Below, piece after piece: positions 1 to 19,900 of a stretch of 38,966 bases of DNA. Numbering within the stretch: the stretch's first letter is position 1; each line of letters opens with the position of its first letter. The position numbers were made by a program, and so were the translations under genes. Where the stretch lies: IMG/VR virus record IMGVR_UViG_3300042519_002218, positions 1 to 38,966 of that record; one strand, given 5' to 3'. This stretch comes from a virus. The notes under the pieces are model-generated. The model was not told the origin of the DNA, did no database searches, and saw nothing but the letters and a program-made list of their open reading frames with translations.

Positions 1-591
1 TTCCCACCAGTCGAAGAAGGCTTCCACATAAGGATTAGTTTCACCGAATTTATAAAGTTGACTACTATCATGAGTGTGAGTAAAATGGTTCCTGCCATCG
101 CTAACCAACCCGTTGTAGGGTCCATGCCGGCGTATATCATTGACCCAAGTGGAACTAAAAGCAGGATTGCAATAAGAACAAGCAAATTGACAAGTGCGAT
201 CGAAACTGATTTCCAGCGTTCTGAGATTGACATCATCTTGGATGGGGGTGTTGACTGCTTCATGTAAGGCCTCTATGGGATAAATTTTACTTTTGTACAC
301 ACGGTCACTCACAGCGTCAGTGTTCATGTCTTCAATCTTCCAGCAGTATTCGCACCCGCTGGGACGTTCTCCAGCCAACATTTTATGTCGGTCTTGTTTC
401 TTTTGATCAGTATTGTGCAGCAGCCTAGAGTTGTTATTGACTTTATCAACGTCAATCAAATGAGCTGGCGGGTGATGGCAACTTGTGGTCTGCCCACTTC
501 CTAACCAAATGGTAGCATTGTACCACTTCGCTGCACAAAAACTTGGGGATAACGGGTCCAAGACCTGTTGTTTAAATTCTAAATCATTCAT
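1..591 (-). CDS. Radical SAM protein with N-terminal extra-cysteine (twitch-like) region, 3' end cut by window
   Basis: This gene was read directly from the minus strand and stays open for 197 codons to the window edge, so the C-terminus is missing. The radical SAM signature CxxxCxxC is at C134/C138/C141 (TCQFACSYC). Four more cysteines lie before it at C19, C38, C80 and C83, in the contexts SCHHPP and CEYCW. The same pattern occurs in the neighbour at 1671-3068, so the two are paralogues. Radical SAM enzymes use a [4Fe-4S] cluster and S-adenosylmethionine to make a 5'-deoxyadenosyl radical. The extra cysteines suggest a second cluster in an N-terminal twitch-type domain. The ATG at 591 overlaps the end of the upstream gene in an ATGAATGA junction, which points to translational coupling. 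The substrate is unknown. Glycosyltransferase neighbours suggest a sugar or a small peptide/polymer precursor, but that is inference. Confidence 0.85.
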   Translation of the reverse strand, partial: MNDLEFKQQVLDPLSPSFCAAKWYNATIWLGSGQTTSCHHPPAHLIDVDKVNNNSRLLHNTDQKKQDRHKMLAGERPSGCEYCWKIEDMNTDAVSDRVYKSKIYPIEALHEAVNTPIQDDVNLRTLEISFDRTCQFACSYCNPAFSSTWVNDIRRHGPYNGLVSDGRNHFTHTHDSSQLYKFGETNPYVEAFFDWWE

Positions 592-1687
592 TTATGTATT
601 GGGCCAAACGTTCTGGAAGCTCTGCACGTTCACGACGATTGTGTTCGCGAAGTTGTTGATAGTTGTATTTACAAACGGATCTAGCACTCTCCAAGAAACT
701 GGCAGCACCATTATAACATATATCTGCTACAACGTCAACTATTCTATTGGCACGATCTGTAGGATCATCTATCTGATCAAAACTCTCATCAATCAGGTGC
801 CCAAATGTTTGGAATCCTGCTAAATGCAAATCTCTATAATAGCCACGATTGGCTGCTACCACAAACGGATGCCCCATGATCATGGGCTTCCAAATCTTTT
901 CTGTGCGGAATGTATACGGGTAATCAAATATGGTTTCGGTTACTACACTGAAGTAGGTGTCAATGTATGGTGCCGGATTAACTTCAGCATCGCCCCAGGT
1001 GTTGCCAAACAAATGATGTTTTATGAATCCCCCAGGCACTGTGCTCATATTGGGCAATGCACGATCAATTTCGTATTGCGGCGGCAACAATCGTATGGGT
1101 TCTGTATTGCCAGTTTGTAGTTGACTGCTCCAGGCCATTTCCACACGGTCATTGAGATTGGTCCACAGTGCTCGATCCAATAACTGTTGATCACGCATGG
1201 CATCTATTAAGTACTTGCGATGTGGACGTAGTCGTCCGTTTAGGAACAAGAAGTCATAGGGCTTGTTGATTTTGTGATATACCTGTGGGTAAGACTCATG
1301 CGCACGTAAGTTTTCCAAGTACTCCACAATGTTGGAGAAGTAACAGTCTGTTTTGCAATAGTTCCAGTCCGGTTCCATGTCGCCAGATGTCAACAATAAA
1401 ATCTCACCTCGTCGTACTTGTTCTTTGATACGCAATCGTGTGAGCTGTAACAGTATGGTTTCACTGCCTTCAGCAGGATTTGAAAATACAATACGGCCTG
1501 GATATTGTTTTGCCCATTCAGTTATTTCGGTCCAGTTGTCTTTTAATATCACACGTCCAACAATGTACACGTTGTTGGGATCAAGCACAACATCTGACCA
1601 CTGCCAGAAACTGCCATCTGCTGATGACTTCAGCAGATCCCATACTTCGGCCCACTCATCCACAATGATTTTACGATTGCCTAGCAT
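584..1687 (-). CDS. Putative glycosyltransferase with fucosyltransferase/exostosin-like C-terminal motif
   Basis: The protein has 367 residues. The C-terminal half contains TFRTEKIWKPMIMGHPFVVA, followed by a Tyr/Leu-rich stretch ending GFQTF. This resembles the nucleotide-sugar-binding motif (Y-TEK-hydrophobic-G-P-V) of GT10 alpha-1,3-fucosyltransferases and exostosin-like enzymes. A central segment, PYDFLFLNGRLRPHRKYLID, also looks like a Rossmann-type beta strand plus helix. I chose the ATG at 1687 because GAGGAG lies about 10 bases upstream. A GTG at 1696 is also possible but sits too close to that ribosome binding site. The gene overlaps the upstream radical SAM gene by 17 bases and the downstream one by 8. 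It lies between two paralogous radical SAM genes, so the three probably act together. The sugar donor and acceptor cannot be told from the sequence. Confidence 0.7.
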   Translation of the reverse strand: MLGNRKIIVDEWAEVWDLLKSSADGSFWQWSDVVLDPNNVYIVGRVILKDNWTEITEWAKQYPGRIVFSNPAEGSETILLQLTRLRIKEQVRRGEILLLTSGDMEPDWNYCKTDCYFSNIVEYLENLRAHESYPQVYHKINKPYDFLFLNGRLRPHRKYLIDAMRDQQLLDRALWTNLNDRVEMAWSSQLQTGNTEPIRLLPPQYEIDRALPNMSTVPGGFIKHHLFGNTWGDAEVNPAPYIDTYFSVVTETIFDYPYTFRTEKIWKPMIMGHPFVVAANRGYYRDLHLAGFQTFGHLIDESFDQIDDPTDRANRIVDVVADICYNGAASFLESARSVCKYNYQQLREHNRRERAELPERLAQYINE

Positions 1688-3068
1688 GGTATGCACACTC
1701 CTCCCACCATGCCCGCATCTCCGGAAATGTCTTTAAGAAGTCTGTGCCGCGGCGACGATCATGTTCACTGAAAAAACGATAAAAGTCTGCCTTGGCTCGA
1801 GAATGATCTGTCAACTGTGCAGACCGCATCCAAGCAATGTCACGATCCAGTCTATGTAACTCGTAGTCTTTGAATCCTTTGAACGGTGCTTCTTCGGTTT
1901 CAATCTGTCGCACCATCCAGGCCCACAACCATTCCAGTTTCTCTGCATAACTTTCGGGCAGTATTTGCAGACTCTGCCATGCAGGTTCTCTTAACACAGG
2001 GGTGTCGAACCACACACGTTGGTAGTCTGTGCTGTACACTTTGCGCAGGCCCAATATGCCAGCAAACAGTTTGTCTAAACTGGTCACACTGAGATTGTTC
2101 ATTGTAATAATAAATGTAAGGCTTGAGTAGTTGGGCACTTCGGTAAGGAATTGATTTACTCGATCCCACAGCAGGTCAAAGTCCAAGCCATTGCGCATGT
2201 ATTTTGCTTGCTCGCCCCAGCCATCCAGACTAACATACTGCATAAAGTGTTCAATGCGTCCATCGCATATGGCCTTGACATAGGTCAAGTACTTTTGCCA
2301 TGACTTTTCATCCACTGAGAAGTTGCTGGTGACATTTAAGTGTAGTTTGGAACTGGGATTGGTCAACACATAATCAAACACACGATAGGTGTTCTTGTCT
2401 AGTAACGGTTCGCCACCAGTCATGCGGAAATGTTCTAAGTGAGGGTACAGGTCTGGCCACCAGGCCCAGAAGGCGTCAACATAAGGATTTGATTCTCTGG
2501 CCGGTATTGGTCTACGCTGACCCATAAAATGATCAGGAGAGTTGTGTGGACTGCTAGTAGGAAAAGCACCCAATCGTGCAACCTCATCTGCCCATGAGCT
2601 CGAAAACTGAGGGCTACAATAACTACACTTAAGATTACAAGCGTGATTAAAATTAACTTCAACATAACTGGGGATAACATTTTCTTCTCCTGTGCTGTTC
2701 TTTATCTGTTCAAAATCCACTGCTGCCCAGGGTTCTCCTGAACGATAGTGTCTATCACTCAACTTGCCTTGATCTTCCATGTTCCAGCAATACTGGCATT
2801 CTGCAGGTTTCTCTCCTGCTAACATCATCCGACGTTGTTGTTTTTTGTATGCGGTATTGTGTAATGCCGAGACATCTATCTTGATTTCGTCTGGATTGAT
2901 AGCATGCAGTGGTGGATGATAGCATGAGTTGTTCATGCCTGTGGTCAAGTGCAGACTGACCTGCTTCCATTTGGCCAAACAAAGTGCAGGACCTAACTGA
3001 TCATGCATCTCTTCAGCAGAACTAAGAAACTTGCTCTTGTTGTCCACTGACTCATTGCCCTTGTTCAT
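1671..3068 (-). CDS. Radical SAM protein with N-terminal extra-cysteine (twitch-like) region
   Basis: The protein has 465 residues and is complete. The radical SAM core begins with C144, C148 and C151 (HACNLKCSYC), and the SAM-binding GGEP motif is at 218-221. Upstream of the core are C30, C49 (SCYHPP), C91 and C94 (CQYCW), which match the partial paralogue at 1-591 in order and spacing. This layout fits radical SAM proteins that carry the auxiliary twitch domain at the N-terminus. The C-terminal part is rich in Trp, Asp and Arg and probably helical. The start is the ATG at 3068, which overlaps the upstream TAA as TAATG; a TTG two codons earlier is less likely. No precursor peptide gene is visible beside it. 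Context favours carbohydrate or surface-polymer chemistry, but the reaction is unknown. Confidence 0.88.
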   Translation of the reverse strand: MNKGNESVDNKSKFLSSAEEMHDQLGPALCLAKWKQVSLHLTTGMNNSCYHPPLHAINPDEIKIDVSALHNTAYKKQQRRMMLAGEKPAECQYCWNMEDQGKLSDRHYRSGEPWAAVDFEQIKNSTGEENVIPSYVEVNFNHACNLKCSYCSPQFSSSWADEVARLGAFPTSSPHNSPDHFMGQRRPIPARESNPYVDAFWAWWPDLYPHLEHFRMTGGEPLLDKNTYRVFDYVLTNPSSKLHLNVTSNFSVDEKSWQKYLTYVKAICDGRIEHFMQYVSLDGWGEQAKYMRNGLDFDLLWDRVNQFLTEVPNYSSLTFIITMNNLSVTSLDKLFAGILGLRKVYSTDYQRVWFDTPVLREPAWQSLQILPESYAEKLEWLWAWMVRQIETEEAPFKGFKDYELHRLDRDIAWMRSAQLTDHSRAKADFYRFFSEHDRRRGTDFLKTFPEMRAWWEECAYHARQS

Positions 3069-3994
3069 TACCAACCTTCTTGTTGGCGGATGACGTCAAT
3101 TTCTCTGACCATGACGCCACGGTTGTACCAGTTTGAAAGATAATGCTGTTTGAAGAATCGGCTTTGCTCACCTTCAAAGATAGCCATGGGCAAGTCTAGC
3201 TGACCATGCAACTCATCTGCCACACGCCCACCCAACAATCTTGGTTCTGCATCTTTTACTGTTTCCCAAATGTCAGCCAATGCATCAAAGTCTTGCACCA
3301 ATCGATGATCCCAGTTTGTGAGCATGGTCATGTATGTGCCTTGTCTTGCACCAGCCATGGCCCACTGACCATTGTTGACATCTGCGCCAATGTTGTGCCA
3401 TATGGTCAAATGATCCAAGTTGCGTTGATGTACTTGTTGTTGAAATTCTTCCACTGTGGGTCGAGCACCTTTGTTTAGACACATTTTAACACCTTCTCGG
3501 AAGCCGGCACGCCATGCTTGAAAAGGGGAGCCATTGGGGTATGTGATTGAATAACAGTCGTACATGGCCCAATACATGGGATCAAAACAAAACTCCACTT
3601 CAGTTTCCACACGCCCATCTGTGGCTTCGTGTGTTCGCATGTTTTCAACAAACTCTTTGGTCCATGAACTTAGTCCACCGTTGCCATACATCAGTCCGTT
3701 GATGTGATTTTTGGCACGCCATCGGAAAACAGCCTGTTCGTAATCTCCTGTAGGAAGATCCAAAGTAGCATTAAAAAAAACAGGATCTGGAAGATTATCT
3801 CCGTCAATAAGAATAAAGCGATCAGTACTACTCTCAGCAGCGGCGGCTTTGTGGGCTGCATCACTTCCTTTAATTCCGTCCACACGTTTTGCCCAAGGCA
3901 CCATGTTACGGATCTTAATCCAAAACTCTTCTTTTTCAGGTTCATCATAACTCAAGTATATACAATCTAAGTCTGCAATGTCAATTTGTTTCAT
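3068..3994 (-). CDS. GT-A-like glycosyltransferase candidate
   Basis: The protein has 308 residues. The N-terminus has a beta-strand start (LDCIYLSYDEPE) and then a DxD-type motif, FILIDGDNLPD, with D64 and D66 placed as in GT-A glycosyltransferases that bind a metal and a nucleotide sugar. The rest has conserved-looking aromatic and basic segments but no second motif I can name. The ATG at 3994 is preferred because GGAG lies nine bases upstream. A start at 4036 would add 14 residues and overlap the upstream gene far more. The gene overlaps the upstream gene by 14 bases, and its stop overlaps the radical SAM start by one base. The role as a transferase is inferred from the motif and the neighbours; donor and acceptor are unknown. 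Confidence 0.7.
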   Translation of the reverse strand: MKQIDIADLDCIYLSYDEPEKEEFWIKIRNMVPWAKRVDGIKGSDAAHKAAAAESSTDRFILIDGDNLPDPVFFNATLDLPTGDYEQAVFRWRAKNHINGLMYGNGGLSSWTKEFVENMRTHEATDGRVETEVEFCFDPMYWAMYDCYSITYPNGSPFQAWRAGFREGVKMCLNKGARPTVEEFQQQVHQRNLDHLTIWHNIGADVNNGQWAMAGARQGTYMTMLTNWDHRLVQDFDALADIWETVKDAEPRLLGGRVADELHGQLDLPMAIFEGEQSRFFKQHYLSNWYNRGVMVREIDVIRQQEGW

Positions 3995-4316
3995 ATGTTC
4001 GTTTACTCCAGCGGATATGAGGTTGGTCCTCAGCAACGATTACAGCGACATTGTCAGGATGACAAGGGGATCCAGAGTTGCCAGGAACCAATTTTGTTGT
4101 GGTCGCCCACGTTATTTCTATTAATTTTCCGTCTCGCACCCGCACGTTGGTAGCACCACAAGCAAATGTTTCTTGGTCAATTTCAATGTATGTACCAGGA
4201 CAATCTTCCATGCTGTAGAATAGTGGCACACCATCTGAGTCGTAGTATAGCCTAAAGAATGGTGCGGGCGGTTCAGGCACTGCATGTAGTACAGACCAAA
4301 ACTCTTCGGGCGTCAT
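3981..4316 (-). CDS. Conserved-looking hypothetical protein in the glycan cluster
   Basis: The protein has 111 residues and I do not recognise its family. It starts MTPEEFWSVLHAVPEPPAPF and appears mostly beta, with a mid-protein GTYIEIDQETF segment and a C-terminal SKRTYE segment. There is no signal peptide, membrane span or obvious catalytic motif. Two cysteines (in DCPG and ACG contexts) and a late PCHPDN are visible, but they do not form a known metal site. The start at 4316 is set by an ATGA overlap with the upstream cupin gene; a longer start at 4403 would run far into that gene. Its position between a cupin and a glycosyltransferase-like gene suggests an accessory role in the same pathway. 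Confidence 0.75.
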   Translation of the reverse strand: MTPEEFWSVLHAVPEPPAPFFRLYYDSDGVPLFYSMEDCPGTYIEIDQETFACGATNVRVRDGKLIEITWATTTKLVPGNSGSPCHPDNVAVIVAEDQPHIRWSKRTYETN

Positions 4317-4672
4317 TGTTGGCTGTCCCCAGGCAACACACGATAGTTGTCTTCCACTGAGTCTGCTGTGCTGACTTCTAAGATAGTTCCTGCTTCTTGA
4401 CACACTAACTGATGAGGCTTGCAGGGTTCGTTGTGCCAGACATCACCGGGCTTGAGATATTGCCAGTGCTCTTCTGCTGTTTTAGTGTCAATCCATTTAA
4501 CAATAAATTCACCGCTCATCACCCGCCAGGTCTCTTCCTTCTCTCGATGGAAGTGCATACTGAATTTTGCATCGGTATTAAAGTGCATGAACTTGCTACA
4601 GTACTGGTCGTTGGTTGCCCAAATTTCTTCTGATCCCCAACCTTTTTCTACTCTACCTGTCAGTCTGGTCAT
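4313..4672 (-). CDS. Cupin-fold protein, sugar-phosphate isomerase-like
   Basis: This is a single-domain cupin of 119 residues. The first cupin motif is MHFHREKEETWRVMSGE, which supplies H40, H42 and probably E46 as metal ligands. The second is LKPGDVWHNEPCKPHQL, with H87 as the likely fourth ligand. The opening KGWGSEEIW resembles the start of phosphomannose-isomerase-type cupins, so an isomerase or epimerase role on a sugar phosphate or nucleotide sugar is plausible. It is too short to be a full type I enzyme. Its ATG overlaps the kinase stop as ATGA, and its own stop overlaps the next start in the same way, so the three proteins are probably made together. The exact reaction cannot be assigned. 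Confidence 0.82.
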   Translation of the reverse strand: MTRLTGRVEKGWGSEEIWATNDQYCSKFMHFNTDAKFSMHFHREKEETWRVMSGEFIVKWIDTKTAEEHWQYLKPGDVWHNEPCKPHQLVCQEAGTILEVSTADSVEDNYRVLPGDSQQ

Positions 4673-5409
4673 TTGATTTGTTCCAATCTAGGTGCATACA
4701 CACCCACATGTTGTACTGTGATTGAGGATGCTTTGATTGCAAACTTCACTGCTTGTCTCATATCCGTTGTTTCTAAAAACTTGTAAGCCAAGGCCGCTAA
4801 AAATGTATCACCTGCCCCACACACGTCAGTGACATCGCCCACAACTTCAGCGGGGAATACCCAGTCGTTCCAGACAGCACCCTGATCGCCGTGTGTGACA
4901 ACCAAATGCTCTTTGTTGGGCAACTCACTGGTGGTACGACTTTTTTCTAGTCGATTGATCTTGACATAACAACCATGTAGTCGTGCTAGGTCTGTTTTCT
5001 TTGTGTCAACAAAGATTGGTATGGTTTGAGTGTTGACTAGGTCTTCAATCAATTCGTAATCCACTGTGCCTTTGTTGTAGTCGCTGATCACAATGGCGTC
5101 ATACACTGGTGGTATGTCTGTTTCAAATCTAATGGGCTTGCTTTCCTCATCGTTATCAAGTCTCAGTAGTTGTTGTTTGGTACGATGATCAATCAGTCGG
5201 TTCTTTTTGCTTACTGCACCATGTAAGAAGGTGACTGTGCATCCTAGTGCTTCCAAGTTCTTGCGTACATTGCCTGCCATGCCATCATGATTGATAGTAT
5301 AATGCGGTTCAAATATAGGAACAGGTGCTTCGGGACTGATGCGATTCACATAGCCGTATGTGTATGTGTCTGCACAGGCATCACCAATTAACAATATGTT
5401 GAATGTCAT
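4669..5409 (-). CDS. PfkB-family carbohydrate kinase resembling the heptose-7-phosphate kinase domain of HldE
   Basis: The protein has 246 residues. The N-terminus reads ILLIGDACADTYTYG and then RISPEAPVP (23-31), a hallmark of the HldE/RfaE kinase domain that phosphorylates D-glycero-D-manno-heptose 7-phosphate for LPS core synthesis. The PfkB signature with the catalytic Asp is CGAGDTFLAALA (GAGD at 198-201). An acidic VDTKKTDLARL segment matches the region before the ATP site. It is shorter than the roughly 320-residue bacterial kinase domain, lacks the cytidylyltransferase half, and has VKINRLE where HldE has a TPN motif. The sugar-binding GG-A-N loop is altered to DGMAGNV. I chose the ATG at 5409 because it forms an ATGA overlap with the upstream stop and removes 29 unconserved residues. 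A heptose-like substrate is likely but not certain. Confidence 0.85.
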   Translation of the reverse strand: MTFNILLIGDACADTYTYGYVNRISPEAPVPIFEPHYTINHDGMAGNVRKNLEALGCTVTFLHGAVSKKNRLIDHRTKQQLLRLDNDEESKPIRFETDIPPVYDAIVISDYNKGTVDYELIEDLVNTQTIPIFVDTKKTDLARLHGCYVKINRLEKSRTTSELPNKEHLVVTHGDQGAVWNDWVFPAEVVGDVTDVCGAGDTFLAALAYKFLETTDMRQAVKFAIKASSITVQHVGVYAPRLEQIK

Positions 5410-6209
5410 TGTGCTCTCCAATCTTTGGCATGGTAATGAAACGCACCTGTTTGTGCCACAGTTTGTATGCGTAGTCTCAGGTCCTGATATTCCCACACCA
5501 ATTCATCCAACCAGTGTTCAGTGCGTGTACCGGCTATGTGTCTTTTCATGTGTACAATTTTTGGGTATGTGCTGAATGGCATTGTAACACGGTCTCGACC
5601 CATGATTTCAGCAGCCATGGCGTACACCAGGTCAGTTGTGGGCACTTCATCAGGAAACTTTATGAGTTTTTTAAACTCAGACCAATTGGCAAATATATTT
5701 CCTACCCAGCCAAAAAATTCTTTGGCGGTTTCACTACGCCGCCAGTATGTGATGGCATTGTACACGTCTGGCAAGTTGTTTGCATCAAACACTCTGCGGT
5801 AATGTCTTGCTGTGCTTACGCGGTCTTTCCAATCTCTGCAGCCGGTTGATATCACAACATCTCTATGTCTAAACTGTGTCCACCAGTGGTCAATGGGACT
5901 CACAATAAACATGTCTGCTTCTAGTTTGATGGTTTCGCGAAATGGTGTGAGTGCAAACAGTTGTGCATCATTGGCAAATGGGTTGGCATTGGGCACAATC
6001 TGTCTGTGATGATCATACAAAGGTTCAGTGTAAGCACGGTCTGTGACCAAACAGATACGTGCCGACGGATCCCAGTAGCGTATGGTTTTGGCCAGAGTTC
6101 TAGCACAATCTTGATAATCTACTGTGTCGCTGTTAACCGCAACAATCACATAACCTTGTTCGTCAATGGGCTGCAACGATGGCCTCCAGATGTCGTTTGC
6201 ACATGGCAT
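5406..6209 (-). CDS. GT-A-like glycosyltransferase candidate, distant paralogue of the upstream gene
   Basis: The protein has 267 residues from the ATG at 6209. It starts with a beta strand (GYVIVAVNSDTVDY) and has VTDRAY after the first helix. It then carries KLEADMFIVSPID, where E97 and D99 take the place of a DxD metal site. The upstream gene has the matching LDADYVV. These features fit GT8-like nucleotide-sugar transferases of the GT-A fold. The start is uncertain. The ATG has AAGGA ten bases upstream and overlaps the previous gene by 47 bases. A TTG at 6176 has GGAGG six bases upstream and would give 256 residues with only a 14-base overlap. The stop overlaps the kinase ATG as ATGA. The acceptor is unknown. 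Confidence 0.75.
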   Translation of the reverse strand: MPCANDIWRPSLQPIDEQGYVIVAVNSDTVDYQDCARTLAKTIRYWDPSARICLVTDRAYTEPLYDHHRQIVPNANPFANDAQLFALTPFRETIKLEADMFIVSPIDHWWTQFRHRDVVISTGCRDWKDRVSTARHYRRVFDANNLPDVYNAITYWRRSETAKEFFGWVGNIFANWSEFKKLIKFPDEVPTTDLVYAMAAEIMGRDRVTMPFSTYPKIVHMKRHIAGTRTEHWLDELVWEYQDLRLRIQTVAQTGAFHYHAKDWRAQ

Positions 6210-6981
6210 GAAAATCTAATCCTTGCCAACTCATGGTTTTCAATCTACCTTCAGTGTTGGTGTATGTGATTTCATAATGGTCCTGTTCCGTGCAAGTCAA
6301 CCCATGATCTGGCATGACATTGAGCATGGGCCGAAATATCTCATGCACTGATTGTTCTGAACCTGCTACCAATCCCAGGGCAATGCTCAGTGCATAGTCA
6401 TTGCGATAGTTGCTTTGGTGTATGCCATATAGGTCTCGATAGTGCTGCCAATTGTTGCGAATCATTTGCATACTATCAAATATGAATTGACTCACATTGC
6501 CACGACGAAACATCATCACAGTGGCCCACCACATGGGCATCTTGTACTCACCAAATGTTTCAAGATTGGTCATACTGCTGGGTTCAAATGCATCTTTAAA
6601 GGCTGCGAACTGTTGCGGTAGTTTCAATACATCCAACAGTGAGTTACTGGCCACAACATAGTCGGCATCCAGCACTATGGTTTGATCAAAAGGTGACAAC
6701 TCATAAGCATTGATGCGTCCAGCATTGTGCCAGGTCACTGTGGTACCGTAGTCTGCAAAGTGTCTTGAGCCACCAGTATCCGGTGCTGTGACGATGATGT
6801 GTTCAAATGTATACTTTGCTGCCTCTTCGGGTGCATCTGTGACCACAGCCACAGGCAAGTCTAAATGGCGGCGAATGTTTTGAGCACTCCATGCTGCCAT
6901 GGAGATATAATCTGTTTGTTCGTTGTTAAACGCAAAGATTAGCACACCTTGAGTCAGCGTTTTTGGTTTAGTTCTTGCCAT
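6163..6981 (-). CDS. GT8-like (GT-A fold) glycosyltransferase candidate
   Basis: The protein has 272 residues. It begins with GVLIFAFNNEQTDY, a first beta strand, and continues with VAVVTDAPEE. The DxD motif is in TIVLDADYVVASN (D105, D107), which in GT-A enzymes binds the divalent metal and the nucleotide sugar. Later segments such as WWATVMMFRR and NDYALSIAL resemble the acceptor-side region of GT8-like enzymes. The start is set at the ATG at 6981; ATG 6993 and TTG 7014 are in frame but would extend into the upstream gene. It overlaps that gene by 28 bases and the next one by up to 47. It is the second gene of the cluster read from the promoter near 7280. Family membership is inferred from the motif pattern; the sugar is unknown. 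Confidence 0.78.
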   Translation of the reverse strand: MARTKPKTLTQGVLIFAFNNEQTDYISMAAWSAQNIRRHLDLPVAVVTDAPEEAAKYTFEHIIVTAPDTGGSRHFADYGTTVTWHNAGRINAYELSPFDQTIVLDADYVVASNSLLDVLKLPQQFAAFKDAFEPSSMTNLETFGEYKMPMWWATVMMFRRGNVSQFIFDSMQMIRNNWQHYRDLYGIHQSNYRNDYALSIALGLVAGSEQSVHEIFRPMLNVMPDHGLTCTEQDHYEITYTNTEGRLKTMSWQGLDFHAMCKRHLEAIVAAH

Positions 6982-7262
6982 TCCACTTTCCATGCGTTCA
7001 TTTGTTCTTGCCAACGTTCGTGTGCTAGAGCAAATAAGTCTGTCACAACAATTTTCACAGGAGTCTCATACAAGTCCAGTATCACAACGTCTTTGTCTTG
7101 TGCGCAGGCCAACAACACAGTCAGCAATTCTGGCCCTGCACGCCACATGCCACCAGCATGGGCGAACACCATTTTTGCTTCATACTTTTCTTTTAGCACC
7201 CGTCTTGCGGCTGCGTGATCAAATCTTGCTCGTGCATGAGCAACCAAGGCATCAGTATTCAT
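6954..7262 (-). CDS. Small hypothetical protein, first gene of the auxiliary operon
   Basis: The protein has 102 residues and no function I can name. It starts with an Ala/His/Arg-rich helix (MNTDALVAHARARFDHAAAR), has a short central beta region ending VVILDLYETPVKI, and closes with a charged helix rich in Trp, Glu and Gln. It seems soluble, without a signal peptide or membrane span. The ATG at 7262 follows a TATAAT box by only five bases and has no ribosome binding site, so the message may be leaderless. The next gene starts inside its 3' end, so it is probably the lead gene of the glycan cluster. It may be unrelated to glycans and simply share the promoter. Confidence 0.75.
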   Translation of the reverse strand: MNTDALVAHARARFDHAAARRVLKEKYEAKMVFAHAGGMWRAGPELLTVLLACAQDKDVVILDLYETPVKIVVTDLFALAHERWQEQMNAWKVEWQELNQKR

Positions 7263-7267
7263 AATGC

Positions 7268-7296
7268 ATTATACAGTAGAAGCGGAGAAAAGTAAA
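7268..7296 (-). promoter_or_regulatory. Sigma70-like promoter for the auxiliary operon, with predicted leaderless start
   Basis: On the minus strand the -35 is TTTACT (7296-7291), then a 17-base spacer, then a perfect -10 TATAAT (7273-7268). The expected start of transcription, six to seven bases further on, coincides with the ATG at 7262. The -35 lies inside the terminator stem of the structural operon. A 12-base palindrome, ATAATGCATTAT (7261-7272), overlaps the -10 and the start codon and could be an operator. This is a sequence-based prediction only. Confidence 0.6.
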
Positions 7297-7313
7297 GGGG
7301 CTGTTGCCCCTTT
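7294..7313 (-). terminator. Intrinsic terminator-like hairpin after the structural operon
   Basis: An 8-bp perfect stem (7294-7301 pairing with 7306-7313) with a four-base loop starts four bases after the stop of the gene at 7317. On the minus strand it reads AAAGGGGC-AACA-GCCCCTTT and is followed by TACTTTTCT, a moderately U-rich tract. It separates the structural block from the auxiliary cluster. Confidence 0.7.
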
Positions 7314-7316
7314 TGG

Positions 7317-8300
7317 TTAAACGATCGAAGACGTTACAGTGGGTGTACCCCAGGTATTGGAGAGATTGGTTGTTTCAGGTGGGTAGTATGTGACAATGGT
7401 GCAAGGTGCTGTGCCAGGTGTTGCACCAGTTGGTGCTGTGCCGCCCGATACTGGATCAGTACCGCCTGTGGGAGGTACGTTGGTATCAACTGCACTCCAA
7501 ATAGTTAAAATGTTCAATGAGGTGCTGTTGGCTGCTCTGGTCAAATACGTTGTAATGTTGTTGCTGGTGTATGGTGCTGTGTCAGCATATTGCTGATAAA
7601 CAACCTGATTAGCAGTTCCAGCAGTAAGACCGTCCCACCCCAGTGTTGAATTTAGAATAGCCGGTGCACCTGATCCACCAATTTTGGTTACTCCATTGTA
7701 TGCAGTACCTGCAATAGTGTGGCTGGTTCCTAGTCCGCTGATCCAAATAACACCAGACAGTGTGTTGGCCAAATCATTCCATTCAGGATCGCCAGTGGCG
7801 CCAGTTGATGTTTTAGAAGTTTGAACTCTGATCAATCCGCCAGCGTTGAAAAAATATTGTGCGGCTGCTGCACTTGACCAAGATACCAAGTTGTTGAACT
7901 GCATGTTCCAAGCAGCACCACCCGAACTGCCACGGCCTGCGGTGTAAGAGTTGGTGCCAGTCCAACCTGTAAATTGTGTTCCTACTGAAACAGCATTGTA
8001 GCGATTGTTGTAGATGTTGGTCAAGTCAGTGTTGACAGCGGCCAACACGTTGATAGTTTGTCCTGCACTAGGTGCTGATCTTGCAGTGATTGTGGTGTTT
8101 GTGTGTGCGCCCATGCTGGCAGTGCTGTTGACTAGACTGGCCCAGTTTGTGGCTGTAACAATACCGTTTGTACTCACAGTGGCCAACGCGGTTTGTCCGT
8201 ATGCTGTGTTTAGCGTTGCATTGAGATTGGCACCAACGTTGGTGCTTACAAAACCATTGTAATCTGCTGCCTGTATTAAGCCGCCACTTGAATATGTCAT
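7317..8300 (-). CDS. Putative tail fibre-like or minor virion protein
   Basis: The protein has 327 residues and starts MTYSSGGLIQAADYNGFVS. It is very rich in Thr, Asn, Ser, Gly and Ala and low in charged residues, typical of beta-rich virion surface proteins. A segment with YFFNAGGLIRVQTSKTS is the most family-like block; similar text occurs in structural proteins of environmental T4-like phages. Near the C-terminus is a Pro/Gly/Thr linker (PPTGGTDPVSGG) followed by a short tail. It is the last gene before the terminator. AGGA lies eight bases before the ATG. A role as fibre, fibre tip or decoration protein is inferred from composition and position. Confidence 0.7.
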   Translation of the reverse strand: MTYSSGGLIQAADYNGFVSTNVGANLNATLNTAYGQTALATVSTNGIVTATNWASLVNSTASMGAHTNTTITARSAPSAGQTINVLAAVNTDLTNIYNNRYNAVSVGTQFTGWTGTNSYTAGRGSSGGAAWNMQFNNLVSWSSAAAAQYFFNAGGLIRVQTSKTSTGATGDPEWNDLANTLSGVIWISGLGTSHTIAGTAYNGVTKIGGSGAPAILNSTLGWDGLTAGTANQVVYQQYADTAPYTSNNITTYLTRAANSTSLNILTIWSAVDTNVPPTGGTDPVSGGTAPTGATPGTAPCTIVTYYPPETTNLSNTWGTPTVTSSIV

Positions 8301-10122: not shown

Positions 10123-10130
10123 TATTTATA
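10123..10130 (-). promoter_or_regulatory. T4-type late promoter box TATAAATA
   Basis: The box is a perfect match to the T4 late promoter consensus. By T4 rules transcription would start near 10117, giving a 16-base leader that carries AGGA before the ATG at 10101. It overlaps the stop codon of the upstream gene. The gp55-like sigma factor at 37920 is its likely partner. Confidence 0.7.
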
Positions 10131-10902: not shown

Positions 10903-13900
10903 TTATCTGTCGCACAAAAACCTTGCGGCTATTGTGTCAGTTTCTTGTAATGCAACACCGTTGCTGGGATTGCCATCAGCTGGTTGATACCAACTCTTGC
11001 CGCGGCGTTGCAGTATGGTTACTTCGCTGCCGGCTGCAGGAGCAGGATATGTATCATCAACTATGAATTCAATGGCCAATGGGTCAAACAGCGAGACAAT
11101 ATAACGATATTCACTGGTTGCACTGGTATCACTGTAATTGTATTGGCGTACCCCGCCCACATACACTTCGATACTTTCTACGTACACAGTGCTAGAATCA
11201 CCAAAGTCTGCAATGTCAATGCTAGGAGCATAGAATACAGCAGTAGTTCCATCGCCCATGCCTGTATCTTTGACCACGTAATCTTGATATTGAACATTTA
11301 ACAAGTTTCCACGCCCAATATCGTACACGTCTGTACCAACCGCATGTGAATTTGCTGCGGTGCCGGCGGTGCCTCGCTGCAACCCAGAAATAGTGTTTGC
11401 AACCAGATCACGATATCTGTACATTATGCGTTCACCGTCAACAGTTATTAATCCAAAAACACCAGCAGGCAAATCTGGCTCACTCAACGCTGCTGCATTT
11501 TCTACATAAATGACATCAGCTGTGGCGCTGACTGTTTGCGTTACTTGTGTGGTAGTGGCCGCGGTCATTCTATAAGTGGCTTGTACGCCACGCATGTCTT
11601 GGAATATACGGAATGACACTGCCTCAGGCACAATAGAATTGGTAAATTCTGTGACTATCAATATTTGTGCTGGATTGATTGCACCTTGAGACAAGATTAA
11701 ATATCGACCTTGAATAGTGTAATCACTTCCTTCAAACAATCTAAAACCATCCAATGTGACCCACAATCTGCTGGCATCAATGTTTGTACGCAATAAATCA
11801 AAGTCATTGATAGGACTTGATGTACCAACTTCAAAAGCAAACTCACCAGGCAATGGTTGAGCAGGATCATTCAAAGTTGGACTGTCGTAATCAGTAGTAT
11901 CGTATGCTTGATAAGTGGTTACACCTGTTTCAACCGGGCCGGCAAAGGTCAGTGTCAATGCATTTTGCTCGCGTGTGTCATTCCAGGTAATAACCTGCAC
12001 AACATCACCAAGATTGAGTGTGCTAGAAATTTGTAAAGTAGATGTGAATAATGGAGCACTAGGATTGTATGCAAATTCACAATCTGCTATGGTGCTAACT
12101 GCAATTAGAATAACTACACCATCAGCTGGCACAGTTTCAAACACAACTTGTCGTCCAGGAGTATTACTTCCGTCCCAGTTTGTTACACTGTATGTTCCGT
12201 CTTCCGCACCAAATGATTGTTTTTGCAACACGCCATCTACATACACTTGAATATCGTTGGTAGCATCAATTGATGATTGCAAGAAACTTGTGCCCATACG
12301 CTGTGGCAACCCAAAACTGGCTGTGGTCCCATCACCAACCCATTCTATACAACTTGGGCCAAGTATTCTGTATCCATTGACCATGACTATCATGTTGGCT
12401 GGGTTGCTGAAAGTAGGTGCGTTTTCAATTTCTACAGCACTATTGTCAATAACTTCTTGGTCCACAATAAATGTTTCAATTACTGGAGTGCTCCAACTTT
12501 GATAAGTTGTGGGAACGAATTTTGCTACCAATTCTCCAGACCAAGTTGCTTCATCGTCAATCAAAGAGACTTCTGTAACACCGTCTTCAGTGATAGTAAT
12601 CGCACTTATTGAGTCATCAACAACACTGAGTATTTGGTAAGTGGGTCCAGTTAGTACACCACCCAAACTATAACCCGAAAATGTAACAGTTTGTCCCACG
12701 CTCAATGATGCTGTTGATCCCAACAACACAATGGCGTTGCCCAATGCTTGTGTATCAGTTACTATGATACTGTTTGCATCTCCTAATATCAGTACTGCTA
12801 CTTCATCGGTGGCTGAGATAGTGGCTGTGATTGAAACCAGACTACGAACAGAAGGAACAAACGGTATCCAATAATTTGTGTCAGTTAACAAGATACCAGG
12901 AGGCACTGTTTGAATGGCACGATAGTATGTGCCTTTGGGAGATCCAGTCATCAACCCCGATGCTGTGGTCAATGCCAACGGAGCAGTAGATCCTGCAATG
13001 TTTGTTATATAAAATTGCGTCCCATTGAGAATGCTTTGCACATAGTATTCCTGTCCCGCAACGATTCCTCCAAACACTGTGCCAGAGAACACAATTGGCT
13101 GCCCAATAGTCAACGCACTGGTATTGTTACAAGTAACCAGGTTATATACACTCACTGTGTTGGTCACTGCAAGTTGGTTGTTGTTGAACACAATATCAAT
13201 GGATTGATATGTATTGTTAACATTGTACACCTGGCTATTAGTATATGGTGTAACTTCGGGAATTGCCACTAACTCGCTGTTTACAAACACATAGACTTCT
13301 ACAATTTCTTTGTACCCAACTGGAACAATTATTGTGTTGTTATCTGCTATGACATCAGCACCTGTATAGTTGCCTTTGAACAACTGGCTACCGCCGCCAA
13401 TTTCGTAAACATCAATGCTGATAATAGCACCTGAATCAACGTTGTTGTCAATGGTAACTGTGCCTTCATCCCAATTAACTGTGTAATCAACGCCTTTGAC
13501 CAACACACGTCCAGTGGACAAATTAGACACAACTATGTTGAATGGATGATCCACAATACCGGCCCAGCTATAATCAAGTGTGATGCCTGGTTCAAATGTG
13601 TAACGAATTGTGCCAATTTGGAATCCATGTCCATCATTTTGCCAGTCTGCACCTGGACGAGTGTAGATACGCATGTCCAGTGTGTCATATTCTGAACCGT
13701 TGACTAGTTCTTCGGGTGCATGGCCTTCGTATGGGCCAATGAATTCACCGCCATCGACATTGATGTCACTGAATCGTTCACCAAGATATATGTCAGCAAA
13801 CTCACTTTGATAGTTGGCATCCAGTGTTTGTGTACCAGTGAAATAGTCACCCCAAACTTGTACTCCAGGGTAATCCACACCATCTACTAGCAATGGTAAT

Positions 13901-16900
13901 TCTAGGCCAAATTCATTGGCACCGGGTACATACAGACCCATGGTACGGTCAACACCAGTCAATCCAGTGGCTTGTGTGCTGCCTGGATATGTGTATGTGG
14001 CTGCATCGACTATTACCCAGTTTTCTAAATCAAAAGTTGGACCAACCACTGCACTACTGCCATCAGCATTTAATGCGGACCATACACGATTATTATAACG
14101 AACCAGGGTGCCGTTTTCGTAAGTGCCCTCACTGCTCCAGGTTTGAATAACAGTTTGGTATTGGAATCTATCGTATCTAAGCACTGTACGGAATTGGCGT
14201 ATCACATCATTTGTCATACGTGGATATGCCACTGCACCAGATCCGTTGCCACCAATGAATGTCACTGTGGGAGTAGAACGATATCCAGATCCACTGACTG
14301 TGACGTTTATGCCAACTACTTGTCCTTGGCCATTTAACACTGCAACAGCCTGAGCAAGAACTTCAGGAGCAGGATCATTGGGGTTGGGTGTAATTTCAAC
14401 CTCAGGCGGTTCAGTGTAACCTGATCCCCCAGCAATCAATGCCACAGAATCCAGTCTCAACAAATAGTTGCCGTACCATTGACTGTATGGCCACGATGCC
14501 CATACTGTTGAGTTGGCTGGTAAATCACTTAGGGTATTGGTTTCAGAATTGAATGCAGTACTCTGAGCATATGGTAACAAAATAGGACTAGTGAATCGAG
14601 GTACCTGCAGACTGGTATTGTAGTATGCTGGTAAATCAAAATCAGTCATGTCCCCAAACCATTGATCAAAACCATTGTATCGCAAGTTGAATTCTCTAAC
14701 TTGAACATGATATGGTTTGACTTCTTGGATGTAGTCTAATACAAACTCTTGATTGTCGCGGCTGTAATTCTGGAACTTGGTCAAACTACGAATTCTGTGT
14801 TCTACATCAATCAACGAAGTTTTAACCAACCATTCAGGTGCTGCAAATTCACTGAGCACAAAGTTAAACATCAATGTCAATTGACGATTGCGTTCAATTG
14901 CCAGCTCGTCAATGAACAATTCTTCATTGATAGCCTGTATGATTTTTCGTGTTTCAATCACGGGCTCTTGGTCAAAGTATTGTGCATCAAAAACTTCAAC
15001 ATCAAATCCAAAACGTCCCAATTGGTAATCCCATAGTTGTGCAGAAAACTCAATGGTACCATCCTGCAATCCCACACGTTCAAACCCTGTGGCACCACGT
15101 AGGTAAATTTCAAATTTACCGAGACTGTTGGCAGTGACTTTTACACTGCTGCCAACTGCAACATTCAATGTATCCAGTCCAGCAACATTAGGAACTTCAG
15201 CAATGATTTTGCTGCTACTATTGTATCCTGGTCGATACCAATCAACATAACTCCAGTATTGTGTGGTGTCATAATTTTGTACTTGAGTCAATTGTAATAC
15301 TCTCACAATACCGTCAACAGTGACTCTTTCTTCAACTGTGTAAATTGTCCACAATCCTTTATTTCTAGAATCAGTAACAACCAGGTATTTGTAACCCAGT
15401 GACACTGCATAAATGTTTTGAAACTCTAAAATTTCTAAGTTTTCAACTCGTTTATTCCACTCACCTGATCCTGCTGACGGTTCAGGTTCACTGCTGTTTA
15501 ACAATACAAATTGACGATTCTCTGCAATAGAAAATCTTGCTAATACAGAATTGGCACGAGTTAAATAATTTTTTAACGCTGCAAATCTGTCCACAAACAT
15601 GCTTTGGCGTGGGCGGAACTGTACTCCATATCGTTCTGCCACTCCAAGATTGATGTCAGGTACCAAACTTCCATTGGTATCAACACCGCAGAAACTGTCT
15701 TGCATTTTGCGGTATAAGTTTTTGCTGATGAATGCATCTTCGCGGTCTTGCGCGACTAATTCGTATTCAACGTGAACGTTGTCGTCGGTTAATTCTTTGT
15801 CAAATTCAATGCTGATAATAGTGTCTTGTGCATTGATATAATCTCCAGCATTATACAACGCAATGGTGCTGGCATCAATGGGTGCCAAATAAGTTATGCC
15901 AGACGCTCTAGGATTTTCAATGTAGTTGGCCACTGTGCTAACTGGCAAAGTTTTGCCTTTTTGTGTGGCAGTGGCAGTTATCCCACGCACCCAGAAGTAG
16001 TATTCAGTGTTGAAAATACCATTGTCACTGAGCACGGTGTTTATTACATAACTATCAATGCTGTAAGGAGTGCCCTCACCTGTGTAGTCTGCAGGAGGTG
16101 TTGCGCTTACAATCCATTGATAAACGTCTACTCGACTACCTGGGAATATTTGTCCCCAACGGCGACTTGCATACACAATATCATCTTGATTGGGATCAAT
16201 AAATCGCACTGAACTAGTATCCCACCATGTTTCACCAACACGACTTTGTCCCCAAGTAGTTCCACGTATTCCAACTGGACCAACATTGTAACTAGCAGGA
16301 TCAACAGCACCAATGTAATCTAAGTTTTGTCTGGCTGCACCAAGAATCTTGCCTTGCAACGGATTGAAGAAATCATAATACTGTGTGGTGGCCGATGTGA
16401 GTCTGTCATAAGAGTAAACAGAGTTCAGCAACCTCACGTCTACCACAGGTTTTTGTTCACGCAACACAGTCCACGAAGGAGTGCGAGTTTCGTTAGTGCT
16501 TACAAAAACTCGTCCATAATTTGCAGTAAGTGTGCTGTCTTCAAATTCATTACCTGGTGCACCTGTGAACAACACGCCATCGGTGTAGTTTACTGCTGTA
16601 CCATACTGGTCATATGACACCACATCAGGATTGTCAATTTGTTGACCAAACACAAATTTGTCTGGGTTGCTGACCGATGGGGTAGCACTGGCCAACAGAT
16701 CGTAGGTATAAACTGCACCACTTTGTATGGTCTGATCAAAGAAGTCTGTGGCGTCCTCGTCAAACACTGTGTTGTTAAGATCAAAAATTGTGATCAAGTA
16801 CAATGTACCGCGTGGTGCACCAACCACTAGATTTATAGCACTGTCTTCTATGCTGAGACTGCTGCCAAAACCAGCATAGTCTGCAGGATATGGACTCTTG

Positions 16901-19900
16901 ATTGTTTGTGTAAACACATAAGTTTCAAACCCAAGGTCGGCAAATGTGGTGCCAACGCTGCCTGGTGCAATATTTAATTTATCTCCCACTGGTGCTGCTG
17001 CTGAGTTCTGAACTGCAATGGTTAGATATCCATCAATGTCAACTGTGGCTTGTACATTGGGCACATCTATATTAATCTGTGCGGCCAACGCACGTACTTT
17101 TGCACTTGCAATTACCAAAGTTGTTGTGATTGCTGTCCAATACGAAGTGTTAGACAACGCAATACCTGCAGGTACATTTTGCAAACTTGAATATACTGTG
17201 GTTATTGCAGTGGCGGCACTGTAGTTGTACACCACAGTATCTGTTGCATAAGATGCAGTATTGCTCCACGCACTGGGAACTACAACATCTTGGTTGTTGA
17301 TTCTAATGGTATTGCCATTGGTTAAATTAGCATTGGCCACTGTAGCAGTAGTAATTCCATATGCACGACTTTGATTGATATGTCGTTCAACCACTCCACC
17401 TTTTAGTTGTTGTAAACTGCTGTTTGGTGCACCAACATACAAACTGCAATTATAACTGCACAGATCTGTAGCATACCCAAAGTTAGAGAATTCTTCTACT
17501 GTGTTTTGGGCTACTGCTTGTACAAATTGAAAACCATTGGTTTCAATTTCGATGATGTCGCCCACTTGCAAGTTACCAAGTATGGTAACAGTATTGCCAC
17601 TCACAGAGAATGTGTCAGTTTCGTCAGGTGCCGCACTTGATTCGTTCACAAAGAAACTGTCATTGACCAGTACACTGACCGGTTCAGCAACTGCACCCAA
17701 CACTGTGAACGACACAGTTGATCCTTCAGTTCCGTAGAAGAATCGTTGTACGTCACGATCAAACACATACACTGAGCCTGCTTCAGTCTTGCCAGAATTT
17801 GTGTCGTACGGTGCACCAATCAACACCTGTCGACCATCAGTGCTGGTGCTAACACTGTGTCCAAACCTATCGCCTGCTTGAGATCCTGCGTAGGTGATGG
17901 TTCCTGAATATTCAAAATAACCTTCAGCACGTACAAGAATACTTGCACCTGCAGGTGGGTTGGATGCTGCTGCAAACGTCACATCATATGTGGAGTTGTT
18001 GAATGTGTAATCAATATTGGGACGTTGTAATACTCCATCAACCAGCAAGGTAAAACTGTAAATGTTATCAGCACTGAACAAGTATTGATTCAATGAGAAT
18101 GTGGTTTCCAATACAGTCGGCGTGTAGGCTGTAGAAAACCCAGTAACTGTGCCACCCGTACCAATGCTGGTAACTGTGAGGGTAATGTTGCCATTGACTA
18201 CGGCTCCGCCAAAACTGGCGGCACTGAGAGTAATGGTGTCAGACACTGCGTAGTTTGTACCTAGCGTGGTAACAGAAACAAGACCTTTGCCGGCTGCTGG
18301 TTGTCCAACTTCATTGCGTTGATACACCACAGTAAACTTGGCTCCTGTGCCTGACGCCGAAGTTGCTGATTGACTTACATTGTAAGTTGCTTGATAATCA
18401 AGAATCTTACGACTGGTTCTAATAATTTCAACAGCATTGCCTGCTGCAGGGGGTGTAGTAAACACAACCATAGTAAATGAGTTTACAACTGTGTAGTCTG
18501 TGCCTAAAATTTGTTCGTCGCCATCGACGCTGACAGTTAGTTGTGTGTCTGCATCAATTTTAATTACATCACCAATGAAATAATTAGTAGTTGCTCCGTC
18601 GCCAACTGCTTTGAGATTTTGTAATTGCCAGTCCACTCGTCCAAATGCATACACCGCATTTGCACCAGGTGCACCAACATACATCCAGCGTTCATCCTGG
18701 CTGATTGCCACGCTGTATCCAAATTCTTCAGCAGCAGTGGTAGACCCTGGGCTGGTCAGTAATTGCCATTGTCCATAAGGAATATTTCCCGGTGCTGCCA
18801 GTTGCGGATCTCTGTAGATGACCACAGCATAACCATTGTCTACTGCGCCAGTTGATCCCAAACTGCCTGGTGCTCCTGCCACTGCCCAGGTTTGATTACC
18901 AAAATCCACGCTGGTGCCATAGCCACGAGCAGCAGCTTCTCCATTGTATGATCCACCGCTAACATCCAATACATCTAAACTTAGTACAGCGTCACTGGGT
19001 GCCAAAGCACTGACTGGTGTGTATATGTTGCTGTCGCTCTTGACATACACATACACACCACCACGACGTGGTAAGTTGGTCAATGGATATGGTGTCCAAT
19101 ATGCAGTATTATAGATACTGATACCTTGTGGCACTGGTGCAGGTGCATAGAAAAATTCTGTTTGCAACGGATCACTTACATACACAATTGAAAATTCAAC
19201 ATACTCATTGGCAATGGTCCATTGTGTGGCACCTGCTGGGAATCGATATCTTGGACTGCCGACCAGGGCAGCATATCGGTTTCGTGCTTGTGCTATTGAA
19301 CTGCCGTATTGTTCGCCTTGATCAACTTCGTCAGGACTCAATCCTAATAATTCAGCGAATACTTCTTGTTTTTCAAGCACACTCCACAATCCGCTACCGT
19401 TGTCGTCTACCCAAACTTTGGCACCTGGTTCAATTGTATTGGCATAAGGAAGATTCAATATGTCACTGGCTTGTGCAACACGTTGCGTTTGCAAAGTAAA
19501 GCCCAGTCCTGTACCGTTGACCACAGTGCGGTCACCAGTGAAACTAAATGCAACAGTAATTGTATCAAGACTTACCACACTGAGTACAGTGTACACACCA
19601 TCAACTTCAGTGTCAAAAAATCGTATGACCAATTTGTCGTTGACTGCGAGCCCGTGCTGTCCGGAGAATATAACCAAACTGGTTCCATCCAAATTATCAC
19701 AAACGTGATTGATAGTGCCTGGTACTGATTGAGTTCTATAGATTGCCCAGTCGTATGCATTGATTTTTGCTACCCATACATTTGTACCAACACCAATTGA
19801 ATTGATGTTTGCAGCCAAGCTGTCAGTGTTGTCAATGTCAAACACTGTGATATCTACATCATTGAGATTTACATATCCTGCTGTGGGCAATGCAATGTCT

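Follow-up and report, generated by a model that had tools for sequence, protein, structure and literature searches.

Record IMGVR_UViG_3300042519_002218 of IMG/VR, taken whole at 38,966 bp and called here the window, holds the first half of an operon-like gene island in which radical S-adenosylmethionine (rSAM) enzymes of the N-terminal-twitch type are interleaved with glycosyltransferase-like genes. The record is itself a fragment, so the gene unit is incomplete at its left end; in relatives the island measures ~14 kb. A core that includes five rSAM types keeps its order across related phages and is preceded by a conserved terminator and promoter. The island is tentatively proposed, in a judgement that falls a little short of an even balance, to remodel the surface of the infected cell through a non-late glycan operon. 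The window is placed among T4-like myophages by its baseplate wedge and hub proteins, virion structural proteins and late sigma factor, and the clade that carries the island consists of T4-like, often jumbo, myophages among the uncultured bacterial viruses.

Viral contigs scanned with g8, an rSAM gene of the island, gave 171 related stretches, of which the best 80 were kept for counts. The relative contigs reach 347 kb, and 14 longer records (100-347 kb), which may be incomplete, were used for genome-wide family searches. In the window, ten minus-strand open reading frames (ORFs), mostly overlapping, run from 7262 to 1 and off the left contig end, and 54 bp lie between g1 and the neighbouring tail-type gene T327 (7317-8300). 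The ORFs are listed below, in some cases with the ratio of nonsynonymous to synonymous substitution rates (dN/dS).

6954..7262, minus strand: g1, conserved protein of unknown function, 102 aa (77/80 relatives; dN/dS 0.08; 31-32% identity in marine contigs)
6163..7014, minus strand: g2, putative GT-A-type glycosyltransferase-like protein (start uncertain, 6957-7014; invariant D116 and D118; 77/80 relatives)
5406..6209, minus strand: g3, putative GT-A-type glycosyltransferase-like protein (invariant E97-A98-D99; phrog_1903, unknown function; 78/80 relatives)
4669..5409, minus strand: g4, PfkB-family kinase resembling HldE domain I, accessory (246 aa, GAGD motif; PF00294, phrog_8133)
4313..4672, minus strand: g5, cupin, accessory (PF07883; phrog_7851 'cysteine dioxygenase'; 3/80 relatives)
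3981..4403, minus strand: g6, small conserved protein of unknown function (likely start 4316; 78/80 relatives; dN/dS 0.23)
3068..4036, minus strand: g7, GT-A-like protein, very conserved (DGDN in 79/79)
1671..3074, minus strand: g8, N-terminal-twitch rSAM enzyme (CxxxCxxC at residue 146; NF033640, 4e-96; dN/dS 0.05)
584..1696, minus strand: g9, fucosyltransferase-like protein with two Rossmann-like halves (fold matches; outside the deepest core)
1..591, minus strand: g10, second N-terminal-twitch rSAM enzyme, truncated by the contig end (NF033640, 2e-38, profile 1-166; full-length orthologue R0 in relatives)

Each of g1, g2, g3, g6, g7, g8, g9 and g10 is matched in 77-80 of the 80 relatives, in the same order and with the same tail genes in front. 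Beyond the window, relatives continue with at least three further N-terminal-twitch rSAM genes and usually with F15 and a carbamoyltransferase gene. Their map reads p202-TF-T327 / g1-g2-g3-[kinase/cupin]-g6-g7-[cargo]-g8-g9-R0-R10-R12-(second g9)-R13-F15 / carbamoyltransferase. Inside the unit, neighbouring genes overlap, with median gaps of -4 to -26, and the gap between F15 and the carbamoyltransferase gene is 94 bp. Cargo genes of at least 150 aa sit mainly at the g7-g8 junction (49/72); none is found at g1-g2, g2-g3, R12-R13 or R13-F15. Contigs binned to marine metagenome-assembled genomes keep the order T327-g1-g2-g3-x-g7-g8-R0-R10-R13-R12 at 31-61% identity, and one of them extends further to SGNH-like, carbamoyltransferase and DegT-like genes. 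The marine relatives are without g9, which is therefore placed outside the deepest core.

Purifying selection acts on all core genes tested (dN/dS 0.04-0.23). Median identity is 66-75% for the rSAM enzymes and g7, compared with 54-56% for the neighbouring tail proteins and 82% for p202. A tblastn search of the phage record collection detected no relatives of g1, g3, g7, g8, g9 or F15. An earlier, sequence-only reading of this DNA had described a ten-gene overlapping unit, with paired twitch-type rSAM genes interleaved with glycosyltransferases in one co-oriented, sugar-type cluster, and this description is borne out. The search for the same gene order in other phages, which it had proposed as a check, succeeds in 80 related contigs and deep into the marine contigs; the core is fixed in order rather than scattered and independent, the outcome that would have told against a cluster.

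The g8 protein matches NF033640 (N_Twi_rSAM) at 322.4 bits over profile positions 3-397, above the curated cut-off of 170, and g10, which the contig end cuts short at profile position 166, scores 132.3 bits against the same cut-off. CxxxCxxC and GGE-type motifs are present throughout the five core types (g8 77/77, R0 78/78, R10 67/67, R12 59/59, R13 57/57). In a tree of 157 rSAM proteins, which was built by a quick method and has long branches, g8, R12 and R13 each form a single clade across phages (support 100), and the main R0 and R10 copies lie in supported clades (99 and 98), with extra copies outside them. By sequence, the five core types thus appear as separate old clades. The 14 longer records hold 6-21 N-twitch rSAM matches each, of which the lowest-scoring fall short of the family cut-off and belong to other rSAM proteins. 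Two different large relatives (L168 and L173) carry a lone N-twitch rSAM gene at matching positions, beside terminase-like and UvsX-like genes.

N-twitch rSAM genes are also found on bacterial contigs, where the genes adjoining them were compared with genes more than 6 kb away. Next to them, other rSAM genes are more frequent (20 vs 8 of 114, p 0.013), and so are GDSL/SGNH enzymes (at least 5 vs 0, p 0.03). A contig binned to Bacteriovoracaceae UBA6144 (L090) displays, in one stretch, eight rSAM genes akin to the phage core types at 30-56% identity; g2, g3 and g7 are not recognisable in this stretch, which may be viral or chromosomal.

The glycosyltransferase-like proteins g2, g3, g7 and g9 match no Pfam glycosyltransferase family. 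Metal-site motifs of the DxD type are nevertheless conserved, as DAD in g2 (75/77), EAD in g3 (76/76) and DGDN in g7 (79/79), and profile comparison shows g2 and g3 to be homologous. The AlphaFold2 model of g7 (75.6) gives weak matches to GT-A/GT2-type folds (best E 0.013). Conserved motifs, the g2-g3 homology and these weak fold matches suggest that g2, g3 and g7 are GT-A-type glycosyltransferase-like proteins; the g7 model is too weak for assignment to a glycosyltransferase family. The g9 model is better (predicted local distance difference test score 93.8). It has no significant match in the PDB, where its weak matches are mostly GT-B-fold glycosyltransferases. Against predicted structures of viral proteins, its matches include named glycosyltransferases (E 9.5e-6 and 7.3e-5) as well as fucosyltransferases (1.6e-3 and 1.1e-2). 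The likeness to a GT10-type fucosyltransferase lies at the level of fold, and no family-level sequence match was found. PDB sequence searches with g2, g3, g7, g9, F15 and g8 gave nothing useful. The several glycosyltransferases and the fucosyltransferase-like gene named in the sequence-only reading accordingly keep their footing in motifs and fold, but not in curated families.

One further ORF touches on g7. In the 332-kb relative G004, a 2047-aa ORF (L176:3089-9232, minus strand) consists of more than 20 repeats like VDYSWHPDPxDPPYIYHFxxQWQ and a terminal domain that looks g7-like by eye; its neighbours are a DegT aminotransferase and an SDR-type gene. Its counterpart in G002 (L164_30) has a weak match to the g7 profile.

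The island is set off from the tail genes by transcription signals, given here with the late promoter that precedes those genes.

7294..7313, minus strand: intrinsic terminator between T327 and g1, AAAGGGGCAACAGCCCCTTT-ACTTTT, 8 pairs; the T tract contains the -35 element
7268..7296, minus strand: sigma70-type promoter of the g1 unit, -35 TTTACT 7296-7291, 17 bp, -10 TATAAT 7273-7268
10123..10130, minus strand: T4-type late promoter TATAAATA, preceding the tail genes 10101->7317; sole exact copy in the window, outside the cluster

The -10 element TATAAT ends ~5-6 nt ahead of the g1 ATG (7262). A single promoter match in a single window weighs little, being equally frequent in shuffled sequence, and the evidence is conservation across relatives. 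A -10 element with at least 5/6 matches lies 2-9 nt before the g1 ATG in 57/59 distinct upstream regions, compared with 230/2950 mononucleotide shuffles, and the 17-bp spacer is kept in 56/59. Among upstream regions of less than 60% identity, the -10 is kept in 13/15; in the marine contigs TATAAT stands 6-7 nt ahead of the ATG. The terminator hairpin has a perfect stem in 47/59 distinct relatives, with compensated stem changes (GGGGC/GCCCC, GGGCC/GGCCC, GCCCC/GGGGC). Ahead of the tail genes, a TATAAATA-type late motif is present in 64/65 relatives at that gap. From these signals we infer a sigma70-type, non-late promoter class for the island; the g1-unit mRNA would probably be leaderless, and the island may be transcribed earlier than the late virion genes or separately from them. 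The conserved terminator and the differing promoter disfavour one transcription unit joining tail genes and cluster. The cluster had also been thought to have its own promoter, which is upheld, and to be separate from the virion genes, which is right for transcription but not for distance, a tail-type gene lying 54 bp away. Farther along the window, the structural region contains a single 5173-aa ORF (10903-26424). An Rfam search found no match.

The kinase (g4) and cupin (g5) occur in 3/80 relatives, and their candidacy as the island's core is rejected on this count. Against TIGR02198 (HldE heptose-7-phosphate kinase) g4 reaches 130.6 bits, below the curated equivalog cut-off of 345, and its nearest named kin are cyanophage kinases (up to 43% identity). 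A partner nucleotidyltransferase and a phosphoheptose isomerase are absent in the window; relatives L003, L005 and L013 have a nucleotidyltransferase besides the kinase/cupin. A cassette near the tail fibres of cyanophages P-SSM2 and S-CAM1 comprises a carbamoyltransferase, nucleotidyltransferase, kinase, phosphoheptose isomerase, 'cysteine dioxygenase' cupin and epimerase. The kinase and cupin are of the same kinds (phrog_7851), and the relatives' island also has a carbamoyltransferase; no N-twitch rSAM is annotated in those P-SSM2 and S-CAM1 stretches, however, and the cassette is optional in the present island. The g4-g5 pair thus appears to be an accessory remnant of this known cassette. 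An HldE-like kinase and a cupin are indeed present, as had been noted, but they stand outside the conserved unit and are a poor sign of heptose or lipopolysaccharide (LPS) chemistry.

Remodelling of the cell surface is favoured because of the sugar-type neighbours, the disfavoured 5-hydroxymethylcytosine route (see below) and published readings of similar islands. The conserved gene order and content, purifying selection, the separate promoter and terminator, the g9 matches to viral glycosyltransferases and the gene neighbourhood of cellular N-twitch rSAMs also count in its favour. Neighbours in large relatives include a DegT aminotransferase and a carbamoyltransferase (by Pfam), and SDR epimerase-like and SGNH-like genes assigned by sequence reading alone. 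Pelagimyophage tail-fibre islands with GT8s, rfaE and rSAM cassettes have been read as O-chain modification against coinfection (PMC7029224), and kinase/cupin/glycosyltransferase clusters of jumbo cyanophages likewise (PMC7824862). As proposed, g2, g3, g7 and g9 would assemble a glycan from host nucleotide sugars, to whose building blocks larger genomes may add phage-made amino-sugars. The five rSAM enzymes would use radical chemistry to modify intermediates that are sugars or glycoconjugates, candidate reactions being epimerisation, dehydrogenation and deoxygenation, and variable decorations might come from the carbamoyltransferase, from SGNH enzymes and from exchanged cassettes, kinase-cupin among them. 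The product would most likely go onto the envelope of the infected cell, hiding the receptor and excluding competing phages. The sigma70-type promoter, set against the late one at the neighbouring tail genes, leans towards the infected cell as the target.

Several observations weigh against surface remodelling. Enzymes that have to keep pace with variable host O-antigens would be expected to be far less conserved than the rSAM enzymes and g7 are, and no core glycosyltransferase-like gene matches a curated family. We know of no substrate for N-twitch rSAM enzymes. Glycosyltransferase family 2 genes beside cellular rSAMs number 5 vs 2 (p 0.22, not significant), and lone rSAM genes stand among replication- or packaging-type genes, apart from glycosyltransferases.

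The strong conservation of the rSAM enzymes and g7 leans, by sequence comparison, towards a constant substrate. It is possible, though rather doubtful, that five different N-twitch rSAM enzymes, kept by vertical descent, work as a relay alongside the glycosyltransferases, and that their single conserved substrate, either a glycan or a glycosylated protein, receives an undescribed sugar modification; if true, the N_Twi_rSAM family would for the first time have a function. The same conservation fits a serious alternative, less likely than surface remodelling, in which the island decorates the phage's own tail or capsid: its enzymes would add sugars to virion proteins or alter them by radical chemistry, the tail proteins encoded next door being the simplest targets. 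SPASM/twitch rSAM enzymes frequently act on peptides or proteins. The best PDB matches of g9, although weak (E 0.03), are protein O-glucosyltransferases, and the island holds a fixed spot 54 bp behind tail genes clade-wide, and behind a related tail gene in the marine relatives. Set against this are the conserved terminator between island and tail genes and a promoter that is sigma70-type and not TATAAATA. Moreover, sugar-nucleotide and carbamoyl enzymes are typical of envelope polysaccharide loci, and in cyanophages related tail-region cassettes have been interpreted as genes for LPS or surface polysaccharide (PMC7029224, PMC7824862).

Less probable still, though also a serious rival, is that the island makes a diffusible or cofactor-like compound, derived from an amino-sugar or peptide, for use in infection. 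The rSAM enzymes and carbamoyltransferase, sometimes with DegT aminotransferase, AMP-ligase and amidinotransferase-like genes, do resemble natural-product clusters, and for a carbamoyltransferase cluster of jumbo cyanophages the predicted product is a secondary metabolite (PMC7824862). A polymer, however, better explains four glycosyltransferase-like genes and SGNH enzymes; the amidinotransferase, ligase and SDR genes are sporadic, and no obvious precursor peptide or export gene was seen.

That the glycosyltransferases and carbamoyltransferase decorate a modified base of phage DNA, an option raised in the sequence-only reading, is quite improbable. The non-late promoter is compatible with it, and 5-hydroxymethylcytosine can be a substrate of phage carbamoyltransferases (PMC8670742). 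In that study, carbamoyltransferases that modify DNA co-occur with thymidylate synthase, whereas on unmodified contigs the genes around the carbamoyltransferase are unrelated ones, glycosyltransferases for example (PMC8670742). The thymidylate-synthase family, including dCMP hydroxymethylase, is found in 0/14 records of 100-347 kb compared with 9/14 control genomes, and the usual 5-hydroxymethylcytosine route is therefore disfavoured. A TET/JBP search is uninformative on DNA modification, the control genomes being equally silent; the TGT family PF01702 is absent from the 14 records. One relative has a DpdA-type transglycosylase-like gene by eye (L175:6166-7719), with no Pfam match and an empty PF01702 search, and a QueE-type rSAM-like gene, also by eye (L175:18664-19515), near a DNA-polymerase-like gene; together they make 7-deazaguanine DNA modification possible there. 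Least credible is a collection of mobile rSAM and glycosyltransferase genes that share no product and accumulated in a plastic tail-region island, a view that accords with the hypervariable insertions (49/72 at g7-g8) and with additional rSAM copies in other parts of the genome but not with the fixed core order, the cargo-free junctions, one main clade per core rSAM and dN/dS of 0.05-0.23 for island genes.

Islands of this kind are already known, as tail-linked phage glycan islands with rSAM cassettes have been published (PMC7029224), and so have phages rich in rSAM genes (PMC5332604, PMC7150976). Among the nearest systems is the host recognition cluster that pelagimyophages and cyanomyophages carry (PMC7029224), a hypervariable island that adjoins tail genes in T4-like myophages and contains GT8-type glycosyltransferases, rfaE-like genes and rSAM cassettes. 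The present island is likewise variable, carries glycosyltransferases and lies beside tail-fibre genes, but its rSAM-glycosyltransferase block, which has a terminator and promoter to itself, forms a conserved core in a fixed arrangement, not a set of cassettes. The published flanks are VrlC and gp14; the gp14 family PF11649 gave no match in 8 records, where the controls were equally silent. TARA_ERS488813_N000010, an uncultured T4-like virus likened here by description, has 12 radical SAM genes, within the 6-21 of the relatives, and the paper on it treats Fe-S supply, not an rSAM-glycosyltransferase operon (PMC5332604). Enrichment of rSAM and glycosyltransferase genes has been published for Tasman Sea phages (PMC7150976). 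The NCBIfam family N_Twi_rSAM shares the architecture, with a cysteine module ahead of the rSAM domain; its name gives no reaction or substrate, and a PDB sequence search found no relative with a solved structure.

In the open-access papers searched, no description was found of the conserved five-rSAM core and its regulated boundary, of how deep the core reaches across marine and other phages, or of its parallel in Vibrio phage K566. The 171 stretches related to one query indicate that many large uncultured phages keep a long radical-enzyme unit. If the island tailors glycans, the ways in which phages remodel surfaces and control superinfection would gain a radical-chemistry branch, and N_Twi_rSAM would have a testable role. 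Vibrio phages K566 and K567 (OZ196521, OZ196593) have genomes of ~255 kb, and by motif reading K566 has five N-twitch-like rSAMs interleaved with glycosyltransferase-like genes at 143.6-180.8 kb (L083). In the tree, the K566 rSAMs form a separate group (support 82), and none of the phage's glycosyltransferase-like proteins matches a g2, g3, g7 or g9 profile. The K566 cluster thus appears to be a parallel assembly with glycosyltransferase-like genes of different origin, and the K566/K567 set offers a possible route to a bench system.

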